Positions 12,078-17,520 of a stretch of DNA of 48,378 nt are shown one piece after another. The DNA is taken from contig JAHCJR010000018.1 in NCBI GenBank assembly GCA_026126165.1, positions 1 to 48,378 on the forward strand, read 5' to 3'. The notes under the pieces were generated by a model that was not told where the DNA came from, did no database searches, and saw only the letters and a program-made list of their open reading frames with translations. Within the stretch, counting starts at the first letter, position 1, and every line of letters begins with the position of its first letter. Source of the stretch: Alphaproteobacteria bacterium. Its GTDB lineage: Bacteria; Pseudomonadota; Alphaproteobacteria; Ferrovibrionales; Ferrovibrionaceae. The translations under genes and the position numbers were made by a program.

Positions 12078-12311
12078 ATGATGATCAGTCACAATGCAGT
12101 TCGCGACCTGCGGCAGGCGGCGGAAATCCTGCGCTCCGTCGATCTCTGGGACGACGGTGTCGCACGCGAGCTGCGTGCCACGTGGTCGCGGCTCGAGCGC
12201 CTGGCCGAGCTGATCGAGAACCAGGATTTCGAAGCGGTCTGCGAACCGGCGCCCTCGCGCCCCGAGACGGGCAACGTGGTCCCGCTCGCACGCCGCGTCG
12301 CGGGCCGCTAA
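12078..12311 (+). CDS. Small hypothetical protein upstream of the CqsS-like sensor
   Basis: A 77-residue protein not recognised. Residues 5-55 are predicted by eye to be helical with heptad-like spacing of Leu, Ile and Trp (RLERLAELIENQDF), ending in a Pro/Arg-rich tail. A GGGGG ribosome site lies just before the ATG, and third positions are GC-rich as in neighbouring genes. It is 29 bases upstream of the CqsS-like gene in the same direction, so co-transcription is likely. It may be an accessory or output partner of the sensor, but nothing in the sequence proves that. Confidence 0.65.
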   Translation: MMISHNAVRDLRQAAEILRSVDLWDDGVARELRATWSRLERLAELIENQDFEAVCEPAPSRPETGNVVPLARRVAGR

Positions 12312-12340
12312 TTCGGAGGGACCGGCACAGGGCGGCGGCA

Positions 12341-13693
12341 ATGTTCCAGCGCGAACTCATATCGCCCCTGCACTGGGCGAGCGCGTACAGGGAACTGGCC
12401 GCGCGTTCGCTGGAACAGGCACGCCCCAATATCAGCGCCATCGGCTGGGTCGGGTTCATCGGATTTCCACTCTACTACTTCGTATGGTATGCGCTGGTCC
12501 CGCAGGCCTATGAGAACCTTTCCCTGCGCATGGCCGGCGCCATCCTCTGTCTCGGCCTGGCGCTGAACAACCGCTGGCCACGCGAGCTGCGCGGCCTCTT
12601 TCCGGCCTACTGGTTCTTTGCCGTCTTTTTCTGCCTGCCCTTCTTCTTCAACTACATGCTGATCCGGAACGAGTTTTCCGTGATCTGGCTGCTGTCCAAC
12701 CTGATCAGCGTCGTGCTGCTGGTCATGCTGGTGGATTGGCTGAGCTCGCTCCTTCTCTTCACCGCCGGCACGATCGTCGCCGCGACCTTCGCCTACTACA
12801 ATGGTGTCGGCAATCTGGAACTGCTCGCCCGCTACGGCGAGTATCTGCCGATCTTCATCTTCGCCCTCATTGCCGGCAGCATCTTCAACTACAAGTCCGA
12901 GCTGCTGCGGCGCGAACGGCACCGCGCCGCGCACGAATTCGGACAGAACCTTGCGCGCGAGCTTCGGCCCTCGCTCAATGGCATGCGCGCCGGCATGCTC
13001 GGACTTGCCAAGTTCATGCCGGACCTGCTTCGCGCCTACCAGATCGCGCGCAACAGCAACCTGCCGGTGCCCAACATCGAACGGCGGGAACTGGTGGCGC
13101 TCGAAGGCGTCGTCGAGCGCATTCGCCTGGAAGCGGAGCACGTCAACACCCTCTTCGAGATGGCGTCGGCCGATGCCCGCAACGTGACCATCGACCCCAA
13201 CACATTCAGCGTCCGCTCGATCGCCGACTGCGTCGATGCGGCCTTGCAGACCTATCCGTTCCGCAGCGACCGCGAGCGCCAGCGCATCGTCTGGAAGCGC
13301 GACGGCGATTTCAGCTTCCTCGGCAACGACAGCCTGATGATCCGCGTTCTGATGATGCTGATCAAGAATTCGCTCTACAGCGTGACGCGCGCCGGCAAGG
13401 GCGAAATCAGCATCCGCATCGGTACCGGCGCCGAGGAGAACTATCTGTTCATACGCGAAACCGGCTTCGGGATTCCGGCGGCGCAGACTTCGGCGATCTT
13501 CGAGGGCGCGAGCAGCTATGTCGATCCGACGATTGCTTCCTCCGGTGGCCTTGCCTTCTGCAAGGCGGTCGTGGAGGGCTTCTCGGGCGAGATCTTCTGC
13601 CGCTCCGAATACGGGCGCTTCACGGAGTTCCAGCTCCACTTGCCGGCCGTGAAGCGCTCGCCGCTGCGCGCCGTGCCGCGGGTGGTGGCCTGA
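12341..13693 (+). CDS. CqsS-like quorum-sensing membrane sensor with degenerate histidine kinase domain
   Basis: A 450-residue protein resembling Vibrio CqsS along its whole length. The N-terminus has about six membrane segments (roughly residues 32-185) containing GFPLYYFVW, PQAYENLSLR and FCLPFFFNYM, close to the CqsS sensor domain. The soluble part aligns with the dimerisation and ATPase domains. At the phospho-acceptor box, where CqsS has AHEMRNPL, this protein reads ARELRPSL, so the His is Arg206 (codon CGC at 12956-12958). The N-box Asn (Asn343) is kept; the G1 box is ETGFGI instead of DxGxG and the G2 box is SSGGLAF. There is no receiver domain, unlike Vibrio CqsS. It may signal without autophosphorylation. 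An SDR gene follows after 25 bases. Confidence 0.85.
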   Translation: MFQRELISPLHWASAYRELAARSLEQARPNISAIGWVGFIGFPLYYFVWYALVPQAYENLSLRMAGAILCLGLALNNRWPRELRGLFPAYWFFAVFFCLPFFFNYMLIRNEFSVIWLLSNLISVVLLVMLVDWLSSLLLFTAGTIVAATFAYYNGVGNLELLARYGEYLPIFIFALIAGSIFNYKSELLRRERHRAAHEFGQNLARELRPSLNGMRAGMLGLAKFMPDLLRAYQIARNSNLPVPNIERRELVALEGVVERIRLEAEHVNTLFEMASADARNVTIDPNTFSVRSIADCVDAALQTYPFRSDRERQRIVWKRDGDFSFLGNDSLMIRVLMMLIKNSLYSVTRAGKGEISIRIGTGAEENYLFIRETGFGIPAAQTSAIFEGASSYVDPTIASSGGLAFCKAVVEGFSGEIFCRSEYGRFTEFQLHLPAVKRSPLRAVPRVVA

Positions 13694-13718
13694 GCTCACT
13701 TGCGCTAACTTGGTGGCC

Positions 13719-15932: not shown

Positions 15933-16057
15933 ATTTGGACAAGATAAAGTGTTGCCTATTGGTCGCGGCCTTTTACTGGGCAATTAATCAAAATGAATTT
16001 GTGAGAAATTTGCGACAAGTTGGTGGTAGGACACCATACCTTGTCTGTCGAAGACCA

Positions 16058-16093
16058 GGTTATCCACAAGAACTTGGTTAACGGTGGATAACC
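16058..16093. repeat. 10-bp inverted repeat containing DnaA-box-like sequences
   Basis: A perfect 10-bp inverted repeat with a 16-base spacer. The left arm contains TTATCCACA (16060-16068), the consensus DnaA box; the right arm read on the minus strand gives TTATCCACC, one mismatch. It lies 2 bases after the histidine kinase stop. It could be a stem after that gene, but no U-run follows on the minus strand. Confidence 0.55.
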
Positions 16094-16095
16094 CG

Positions 16096-17520
16096 TCAGG
16101 CCGCACTGGCGGCGGCAAAGCGAAGCGTGGCCGTCGTGCCCACATCGACCGTGCTTTGCAATTCGAACCTGGCGCCATGCAGTTCCGCCATGGCTTTCAC
16201 CAGGGGCAGGCCAAGGCCGGTGCCGGAATGCTGCCGCGTCATCGCCCCCTCGACCTGGCCGAAGGCCTGCATGACCAGTTCCATGTCGTCGGGCGCGATG
16301 CCGATGCCCGTGTCCTGCACGACGATCAGCGTTTCGCGCCCGGGCGTCCGCTCGACCGTGACGCTGACCTTGCCGCCGATCGGCGTGAACTTGATCGCGT
16401 TGGAGATCAGGTTGAGCAGCATTTGCTTGAGCAGCCGCTCGTCGCATTTGATTCGGGGCGCCGGCTCCGGCCAGCGGCAATCCACCTCGAGCCCCGCCTT
16501 GTCGGCGCTGTCGCGCAGGATACTGACCGTCGCGGTGACGACTTCGGAAACATCCACCACCGATTCATGCACCACCATCTTGCCGGCCTCGATCTTGGTC
16601 AGGTCGAGGATGTCGTTGATGATGGCGAGCAGGTGCGAGCCGGAGCGATGGATGTCCTTGGTATAGTCCAGATACTGCGCATTGCCGATGGGGCCGAACA
16701 TCTGCTGCATCATGATCTCGGAGAAGCCGATCACCGCATTGAGCGGCGTGCGCAACTCGTGACTGATGCTGGAGATGAATTCCGACTTGGCCCGGCTCGC
16801 CACCTGCGCCTCTTCCTTGGCCGAAGCCAGCTCCAGGCGCAGCATGTGGGACTTGACCAGGATCGAGTTGATGTGGCGTGCCACCAGGCCAAGGATCAGC
16901 GCATACGGCAGGGCGAAGCCGGCGATCAGCCCATAGAGGCTGTCGCCGCCATTGCGGGGATAGCCGAGGACGACCGTCAGCAACCCGGCGCCGATGAAGA
17001 CCATCAGGGAGGGAAGGTGGCTCAGCATCAGCCCGGACGAGGCCGCCGCGATCGCCGCTGCCGTCATCACCAGGAAGACCTGGTGCACGTTCGCCCCGAA
17101 CGGCCAGAGAAAGACCAGCGCCCCGCCCCAAAGCAGGCCGCTCGCGGCGCTGACGCAGACAAGCAGGGCCTGCGCCTGCCCGATGGAATCCGCCGAGATG
17201 AACCACCGCTTGTAGCGATACCAAAGCATGGCGCGGGCCGCCGCGAGGCCCCAGACCAGCAGGAACCAGGTGGCGAGTGCCGCTGGCGGCACCAGGCCGC
17301 CGAGGCCGAGCACGATCAGAAGTGCCGCCGCCGCTTCCAGCGTGACGGCATAGATGCTGCTGGAGAGTGTCTGACCGAGCTGCTCGAAGCGGATTTCGCT
17401 TCCGGCGCCCTTCTGCGCCGATGCCGCGACCGTTCCATGCCACGGCCGGCGGCCATCCGCGGTCCGTTCGGTCTGCAATTCAAGATCGCGCTTGATCCCG
17501 AAAGGTTGCGGCACAGTCAT
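16096..17520 (-). CDS. Membrane-bound sensor histidine kinase
   Basis: A 474-residue kinase. The N-terminal soluble 50 residues are followed by five or six hydrophobic segments between about 55 and 218, a short coiled linker, then the HisKA domain with SISHELRTPL (phospho-acceptor His254). The HATPase domain has NLISNAIKF, DTGIGI and GTGLGL. All catalytic boxes are intact, in contrast to the CqsS-like protein 2.4 kb away. No receiver domain. The membrane part does not resemble CqsS. The start ATG 17520 was chosen over a codon nine residues upstream. It is upstream of cqsA on the same strand but separated by 343 bases with an independent promoter. No response regulator gene is adjacent. The 286 bases upstream of it (17521-17806) show no gene. 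Confidence 0.9.
   Translation of the reverse strand: MTVPQPFGIKRDLELQTERTADGRRPWHGTVAASAQKGAGSEIRFEQLGQTLSSSIYAVTLEAAAALLIVLGLGGLVPPAALATWFLLVWGLAAARAMLWYRYKRWFISADSIGQAQALLVCVSAASGLLWGGALVFLWPFGANVHQVFLVMTAAAIAAASSGLMLSHLPSLMVFIGAGLLTVVLGYPRNGGDSLYGLIAGFALPYALILGLVARHINSILVKSHMLRLELASAKEEAQVASRAKSEFISSISHELRTPLNAVIGFSEIMMQQMFGPIGNAQYLDYTKDIHRSGSHLLAIINDILDLTKIEAGKMVVHESVVDVSEVVTATVSILRDSADKAGLEVDCRWPEPAPRIKCDERLLKQMLLNLISNAIKFTPIGGKVSVTVERTPGRETLIVVQDTGIGIAPDDMELVMQAFGQVEGAMTRQHSGTGLGLPLVKAMAELHGARFELQSTVDVGTTATLRFAAASAA

Follow-up and report, generated by a model that had tools for sequence, protein, structure and literature searches.

Can a quorum-sensing receptor that has lost its phosphoacceptor histidine still pass on a signal? 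The question is raised by a locus in a 48,378-nucleotide stretch of alphaproteobacterial DNA (contig JAHCJR010000018.1 of assembly GCA_026126165.1, Ferrovibrionaceae; the whole stretch is called the window below), in which a small open reading frame (ORF), the gene of a CqsS-type receptor and a short-chain dehydrogenase/reductase (SDR) gene lie on the forward strand, followed on the reverse strand by cqsA, the gene of an alpha-hydroxyketone (AHK) autoinducer synthase, and a histidine kinase (HK) gene (positions 12078-17547). Quorum-sensing receptors of the CqsS kind have been described as bifunctional kinase/phosphatases, and the receptor encoded here is predicted to be kinase-dead. We lean slightly towards reading the locus, from its sequence, as a CqsA/CqsS-type ketone quorum-sensing system in which such a receptor would act via the DivJ-type HK encoded upstream of cqsA. 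The CqsA/CqsS kind is itself already known; the new part is a CqsS-type branch, predicted to be kinase-dead, with a linked HK. The genes and synthase motifs that the original prediction had named are all present, with the receptor convergent with cqsA and the SDR between them, although the HK (16096-17547), which lies within the range it covered, had been left undiscussed.

The synthase and a degenerate receptor

Is the synthase a CqsA? It scores 503.1 bits against NF005526, the AHK autoinducer synthase equivalog of NCBIfam (cut-off 428), with BioF next best among the other alpha-oxoamine synthase models at 245 bits; against structures, Vibrio cholerae CqsA (2wk8) gives 302 bits with 363 residues aligned, and the best other enzyme 154 bits. 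Lys269 aligns with K236 of V. cholerae CqsA, the pyridoxal phosphate (PLP) lysine (PMC3376566; papers are cited here by PMC number, each for the part that was available). In a 53-row tree the enzyme falls inside the CqsA group (36 rows), which a long branch with SH-aLRT 100 sets apart from 17 other, not individually named rows of the superfamily. Model scores, structure scores and tree rule out another alpha-oxoamine synthase, and the proposal that this is CqsA stands, models and structures of KBL, BioF and ALAS scoring far lower. From the family match, its product would be an alpha-hydroxyketone or the amino precursor of one.

The sensor had been proposed to be a CqsS-like kinase, and the first half of this holds. 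It is the sole CqsS-type HK found in its genome (638 bits, against 69 for the next HK), and a protein search gave 22 homologs, including CqsS-type ones that match it from end to end; four of the 22 carry the name CqsS in their source. That it is an ordinary sensor kinase does not hold. In its H box, LARELRPSL stands in place of the IAHELRTPL of CqsS-type kinases, so that Arg206 replaces the phosphoacceptor His; its G1 box (IRETGFGIP) has Glu for Asp; and its G2 box is ASSGGLAFC, compared to GAGIGLAFC in the intact relative L050, a loss of two glycines. The N box and the G1-box glycines are kept, and among the Pfam domains HATPase_c alone matches, with no match to HisKA, PAS or a receiver domain. 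A sequencing error at the His codon is ruled out, since a separate assembly with 94-96% DNA identity to the window (L009) also has Arg there and the relatives P0002-P0006 also lack His. Because the His is Arg and the ATP-binding boxes are altered, we predict that the receptor is kinase-dead; it fails the features of a CqsS kinase and is therefore not assigned as one.

An AlphaFold2 model of the receptor (pLDDT 81, pTM 0.51) has six N-terminal helices, taken as a membrane bundle, followed by the hairpin of a dimerization and histidine phosphotransfer (DHp) domain and an ATPase fold, and a Foldseek search with this model returns HK structures, DivL (4q20) ranking 14th and RetS 41st. The ligand residues of V. 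cholerae CqsS are W104, S107, F160/F162/F166 and C170 (PMC3376566). Shifting all these numbers by +12 gives W116, S119, F172, F174, A178 and F182 in the window receptor, a mapping made by spacing and conservation with the V. cholerae CqsS sequence itself outside the comparison; W116, S119 and F174 are invariant in all 18 rows of our receptor alignment A3. Phe at the C170 position limits Vibrio receptors to C8 tails (PMC3285556), and because Phe182 sits at this chain-length position our guess would be a short-tailed, C8-like ligand.

The loss of the His is shared by relatives. In a 79-row tree of full-length receptors the His-less ones lie in one 15-row clade (support 100/99), and the His is missing in 13 of these 15 rows and in none of the 64 rows outside it. 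Within the clade the site holds R, L, D, A, K or Q, and the two rows that keep the His (L054 and L070; Marinicaulis) have a broken G1 box. Its named members are Alphaproteobacteria of several families, L013 being labelled just Proteobacteria and the P rows carrying no taxon, and the original suggestion of a separate branch of ketone signalling is borne out as a distinct alphaproteobacterial branch. A further relative, P0143, also has Arg at the site. Left out before these counts were P0001 (from the 79-row tree), the window copies W000 and L095, the partial receptor L085 and seven cyclase-type receptors; 20 beta- and gammaproteobacterial rows were thinned from a later tree.

Is the altered domain maintained? 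Compared with its counterpart in L009, the receptor gene carries 58 synonymous and 8 nonsynonymous changes (dN/dS 0.040, one pair). Its DHp and ATPase part is tighter, with 33 synonymous changes and 1 nonsynonymous change (dN/dS 0.009, one pair), than its transmembrane (TM) part (0.082) or cqsA (0.086). Judged by these substitutions, the dead DHp and ATPase domain is under purifying selection, and pseudogene decay of the receptor is ruled out by the same ratios.

Neighbourhoods of cqsA and a linked histidine kinase

We surveyed the neighbourhoods of cqsA in the best 80 of 515 relatives, which gave 78 loci; because just the best were kept, the survey leans to near relatives. A full-length receptor of the HK type is present at 56 loci, a cyclase-fused one at 7 and a partial one at 1, and 14 have none on the stretch, so that synthase and CqsS-type sensor co-occur at 64 of the 78. 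In most of the loci the order is sensor, lqsR and convergent cqsA, and in the window the SDR takes the place of lqsR. The reported absence of LqsR was also confirmed: there is no match around the locus, and the best in the genome, which is ~81% complete, has 22 bits and covers a receiver only. Among 57 loci with an HK-type receptor (the survey plus L127), with LqsR scored anywhere on the stretch and not by strict adjacency, and with the Tistrella-type loci L179 and L180 outside the search, 47 have both the His and lqsR, five have the His without lqsR (L054, L070, L077, L086, L078), five have neither (L009, L010, L012, L013, L127) and none has lqsR without the His.

In the HK of the window the H box (SHELRTPLNA) is intact, with His263, and both HisKA and HATPase_c are present. 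DivJ is the best NCBIfam match for the core of all six HKs scanned, below cut-off in each case; the window HK reaches 223 bits in the core region only, short of the cut-off of 1000 of the DivJ model (NF050805). In the degenerate clade the DNA upstream of cqsA can be seen at seven loci (the window, L009, L010, L013, L054, L070 and L127), and at all seven a related HK gene precedes cqsA on the same strand; L012 is cut by a contig end upstream of cqsA and stands outside this count. The seven kinases form one group (94/91) apart from 14 other HKs of the window's own genome.

The link to an HK recurs where the receptor has degenerated further. The Tistrella-type receptor, found in three genomes, consists of the membrane bundle and a DHp domain in which Arg again takes the place of the His; the ATPase domain is missing, and the gene lies 34-36 kb from cqsA. 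In two of these genomes a related HK gene ends just 5' of the receptor gene (the gap is 5 nt in L180), and the products score 420 and 415 bits against a model of the seven HKs, compared with 331 for the best paralog in the window's own genome; the third genome (G260) has the same short receptor. With these two kinases added to the tree, the seven have support of 81/86 and all nine 88/93, none of these starred.

Across the class, CqsA is over cut-off in 8 of 385 alphaproteobacterial genomes and a CqsS-type receptor is found in 13 of 385. Five of the eight CqsA genomes carry a receptor, and all five receptors (three of them from one genus) lack the His; the eight genomes with a receptor only have kept it in 11 of 11 receptors.

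In those eight alphaproteobacterial genomes, which have no CqsA over cut-off, the 11 receptors with intact His (L163-L165, L169-L176) have Asn at the Ser119 position in eight cases, Lys in one and Ser in two. Such receptors are possible eavesdroppers or sensors of another ligand. A second type of HK is divergent from cqsA in L065, L081 (= the L126 locus), L130 and L131. In the HK tree these kinases cluster by themselves, and they may be a further receptor of the signal; the L081 genome has its CqsS-type receptor elsewhere (L127). Upstream of cqsA, L011 and L125 have no visible HK or receptor on the stretch. The frame of the stand-alone CqsA of L011 begins with what we take to resemble a transposase, and from this start and the missing genes an insertion may have broken the cluster.

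A proposed mechanism and its alternatives

How might these parts work together? By the family to which it belongs, CqsA would join acyl-CoA and S-adenosylmethionine to form an amino-enone, which would give a diketone. The translation of the SDR contains TGGNGGIG, NNAG and YAASK, presumably SDR motifs. Its position makes this enzyme a candidate that could be the final reductase of the signal, turning diketone into hydroxyketone; according to a review the diketone intermediate is reduced by an NADPH-dependent dehydrogenase, and VC1059 has been named as a diketone-reducing dehydrogenase (PMC4071575). The ligand would then bind the membrane bundle of the receptor, where Trp116, Ser119 and Phe174 match, in their spacing, the ligand residues of Vibrio. 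The receptor, given the motif loss seen, would not autophosphorylate; gene linkage and the precedents described below suggest that its module of DHp and ATPase fold would instead contact the partner HK and change its activity.

Two precedents bear on the last step. Caulobacter DivL, conserved in Alphaproteobacteria and part of the DivK/CtrA pathway, has an HK fold with Tyr at the His site, and its DHp domain binds DivK~P without kinase or phosphatase activity (PMC4211667). It shares with the window receptor an HK fold in which the phosphoacceptor His is replaced, but DivL has PAS domains and intact N and G boxes, whereas the window receptor has a CqsS-type sensor, altered G boxes and Arg, and its Tistrella-type relatives lack the ATPase domain. 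In Corynebacterium glutamicum the dead HK ChrS signals via its paralog HrrS, and heterodimers are formed (PMC9491836). This too is a dead HK working through another HK; ChrS is, however, a laboratory-evolved frameshift product, and the window receptor is natural, conserved and, as we read it, part of quorum sensing. Because of DivL and ChrS, we propose that the ligand-bound receptor would modulate the neighbouring HK.

A number of observations weigh against this proposal. Support for the HK group is moderate, dropping from 94/91 to 81/86; paralogs in the window's own genome are as close to its HK (49% identity over the core alone, 35% over residues 34-475) as the group members other than that of L009, which share 35-42% with it. 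Other types of HK also adjoin cqsA at loci with an intact receptor (for example L019, L021, L029 and L040), and at L065, L081, L130 and L131, where the stretch lacks a CqsS-type receptor. The SDR gene adjoins cqsA only in the window and in L009, of the same genus, and L012, of the same family, has no SDR. Three of the eight CqsA genomes (G281, G187, G359) have no CqsS-type receptor at E<=1e-40, the threshold of the class-wide search, which used a profile of A3 (mainly degenerate rows) and scored at most four candidates per genome. The counts that pair the His with LqsR and with CqsA are not phylogenetically independent, and a test on independent pairs found two pairs and had no power. Finally, in a tree of the TM and DHp parts built with a mask on the H-box column, a branch supported at 60/86 sets off the 18 rows of the degenerate kind, 16 of which lack the His; this branch is weak, and therefore one loss of the His and a few losses are indistinguishable.

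Of the alternatives, the one that survives best, though we think it clearly improbable, is that the receptor needs no partner kinase: the ligand would control either its binding to a distant response regulator, in the manner of DivL, or its phosphatase activity on one, with the HK uninvolved. The binding of DivK~P through the DHp domain of DivL (PMC4211667) offers a model for this, DivL is among the structures returned by Foldseek, and the DHp and ATPase part is strongly constrained. The window's own genome, moreover, has adjacent genes that we read, from their translations, as DivK (no more than a receiver) and PleD (a pair of receivers with a GGDEF-type end). Such an arrangement leaves unexplained why the HK gene is linked to cqsA at seven loci and, in two Tistrella-type genomes, to the receptor gene.

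Much less probable is a receptor that is a decaying remnant or a passive ligand sink, the signal being read by other species or other receptors. The motif loss does vary among lineages, and CqsA is patchy (a match at E<=1e-90 was found in 3 of 18 genomes of the order). The dN/dS of 0.009 in the dead domain (one pair, with L009), below both the TM part and CqsA, argues against decay, as does a clade that covers several alphaproteobacterial families. Still harder to credit is an ordinary CqsS-type kinase with another phosphoacceptor, for example His198, which lies 8 residues upstream (AAHEFG) in a protein that keeps the N box and the G1 glycines: this residue is Asn in P0002 and Leu in P0004, Arg206 holds the H-box position, and the entire ATPase domain is missing from the Tistrella-type relatives. 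Least credible of all is that the synthase makes a non-signal alpha-aminoketone and that chance alone put SDR, receptor and HK beside it: 14 of 78 survey loci do lack a CqsS-type receptor on the stretch, but the equivalog-level match to AHK synthases and the receptor at the other 64 speak against it.

If a kinase-dead receptor does act through the linked HK, then a conserved and selected clade of such CqsS-type proteins with a linked HK would wire quorum sensing in a new way and offer a natural case in which to study how pseudokinases of the HK fold signal. The graded series of losses (the His, the G boxes, the whole ATPase domain), together with the cyclase-fused receptors described below, would make the outputs of the CqsS sensor testable. 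A broader idea, which we regard as improbable, is that in Alphaproteobacteria the phosphorelay of ketone quorum sensing gave way to a receptor without catalysis that switches, as DivL does, a dedicated kinase of the DivJ/PleC type; this would couple cell density to the DivK-PleD/CtrA circuit of cell fate and to cyclic di-GMP.

How does the locus differ from known systems? With Vibrio CqsA/CqsS it shares the synthase family with its PLP lysine and the W/S/F ligand residues (at +12, by spacing), but its receptor lacks the phosphoacceptor His and a receiver domain and has altered ATP boxes, and it adds an SDR and a separate HK. With the Lqs-type clusters (lqsA-lqsR-lqsS, and jqsA-jqsS-jqsR of Janthinobacterium; PMC3566124) it shares a receptor gene that is convergent with or near the synthase gene and a receptor with no receiver domain; it differs in having the SDR between receptor and cqsA instead of lqsR, and a receptor predicted to be kinase-dead. 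The statement that such systems are known only from Vibrio and Legionella was too narrow: jqsA of Janthinobacterium has been deleted and complemented (PMC3566124), and relatives of CqsA are common in beta- and gammaproteobacteria. In a search from which subscription journals were largely absent, we found no prior report of a CqsS pseudokinase, of a CqsA-MMPL protein or of Tistrella CqsA, and for AHK CqsA/CqsS systems in Alphaproteobacteria a general review only.

Locus layout, exporter fusions and cyclase fusions

Features of the locus, and of survey loci with fused genes, are collected in Table 1. The start chosen for cqsA matches that of the relative P0023, and the SDR start lies 16 nt downstream of the receptor stop. 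Among 18 genomes from the order, a homolog of the small ORF is present in two (its own genome and G396, of the same genus); the ORF is probably coding because its dN/dS is 0.148 compared with L009. Scans for consensus promoters (1 found; shuffle mean 1.3) and consensus terminators (6 found; shuffle mean 5.0) gave no excess, and the window holds no response regulator (receiver matches number 40 genome-wide, with 0 on contig C72). The SDR was rejected as a general cqs gene: at a phmmer E of 1e-15, beyond L009 just 4 of 77 survey loci have one (L051, L055, L057, L060), at 1.3-5.4 kb from the nearest cqs gene.

Table 1. Positions of features in the window and at survey loci
Feature	Position	Strand	Basis or remark
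Small ORF, 77 aa	12078..12311	+	Direct reading; stop 29 nt 5' of receptor start
CqsS-type receptor, 450 aa	12341..13693	+	Pfam HATPase_c, full-length relatives, structure model, motif table
Arg206 codon at phosphoacceptor His position	12956..12958	+	Direct reading and alignment
SDR, 257 aa	13710..14483	+	Pfam adh_short_C2, 208 bits; TTG start, ATG 13719 possible
cqsA	14499..15821	-	NF005526, PDB 2wk8, tree; likely start ATG 15752, giving 417 aa
HK, 483 aa, partner candidate	16096..17547	-	HisKA and HATPase_c; upstream of cqsA, same strand
Gly-rich protein	18765-19484	-	PEP-CTERM-like C-terminal end
MMPL-CqsA fusion	L010:7627-11190		Survey locus
MMPL-CqsA fusion	L011:7580-11200		Survey locus
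MMPL-CqsA fusion	L013:6439-10026		Survey locus
MMPL-CqsA fusion	L023:7526-11239		Survey locus
MMPL-CqsA fusion	L054:7679-11260		Survey locus
MMPL-CqsA fusion	L070:7679-11260		Survey locus
Stand-alone MMPL-type exporter	L071:15144-17408		Gammaproteobacterial locus
Stand-alone MMPL-type exporter	L076:15150-17423		Gammaproteobacterial locus
Stand-alone MMPL-type exporter	L079:6887-9283		Gammaproteobacterial locus
CqsS-cyclase fusion	L014:11207-12922		Survey locus
CqsS-cyclase fusion	L020:11200-12987		Survey locus
CqsS-cyclase fusion	L025:11206-12957		Survey locus
CqsS-cyclase fusion	L030:11357-13117		Survey locus
CqsS-cyclase fusion	L043:11216-13216		Survey locus
CqsS-cyclase fusion	L056:2371-4182		Survey locus
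CqsS-cyclase fusion	L082:2966-4726		Survey locus

At six of the 78 survey loci an exporter of the MMPL/RND type carries a fused CqsA at its C-terminus, in proteins of ~1190-1240 amino acids (aa). Pfam confirmed MMPL and Aminotran_1_2 domains in the two that were scanned (L010, L023). The fusion gene sits directly after a stand-alone cqsA, fused and stand-alone copies group apart except in L023, and a LolA-like gene (PF17131) is present in 4 of 4 loci scanned (L010, L013, L054, L070). By its look, this protein would both make and export a hydrophobic signal. No dedicated counterpart of the fused MMPL part turned up in the window's own genome (best 26 bits), which does have eight MMPL-family matches; at three gammaproteobacterial loci the cqs cluster has a separate MMPL-type exporter gene nearby.

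At seven of the 78 loci a CqsS-type membrane domain is fused to a class III cyclase and encoded beside cqsA. PF00211 is over cut-off in 5 of 5 of these scanned, and the motif ADIRNFT or a close one is found in 7 of 7. These proteins are candidate natural receptors that would convert a ketone signal to a cyclic nucleotide; an engineered CqsS-cyclase chimera has been described in PMC4821796, the available part of which reports no natural fusion. Beyond the cqs genes, the window encodes a Gly-rich protein whose C-terminal end (VPEPGTLSLLGLALLGLGGLMMGRRR) resembles PEP-CTERM; its family matches are weak and below cut-off.

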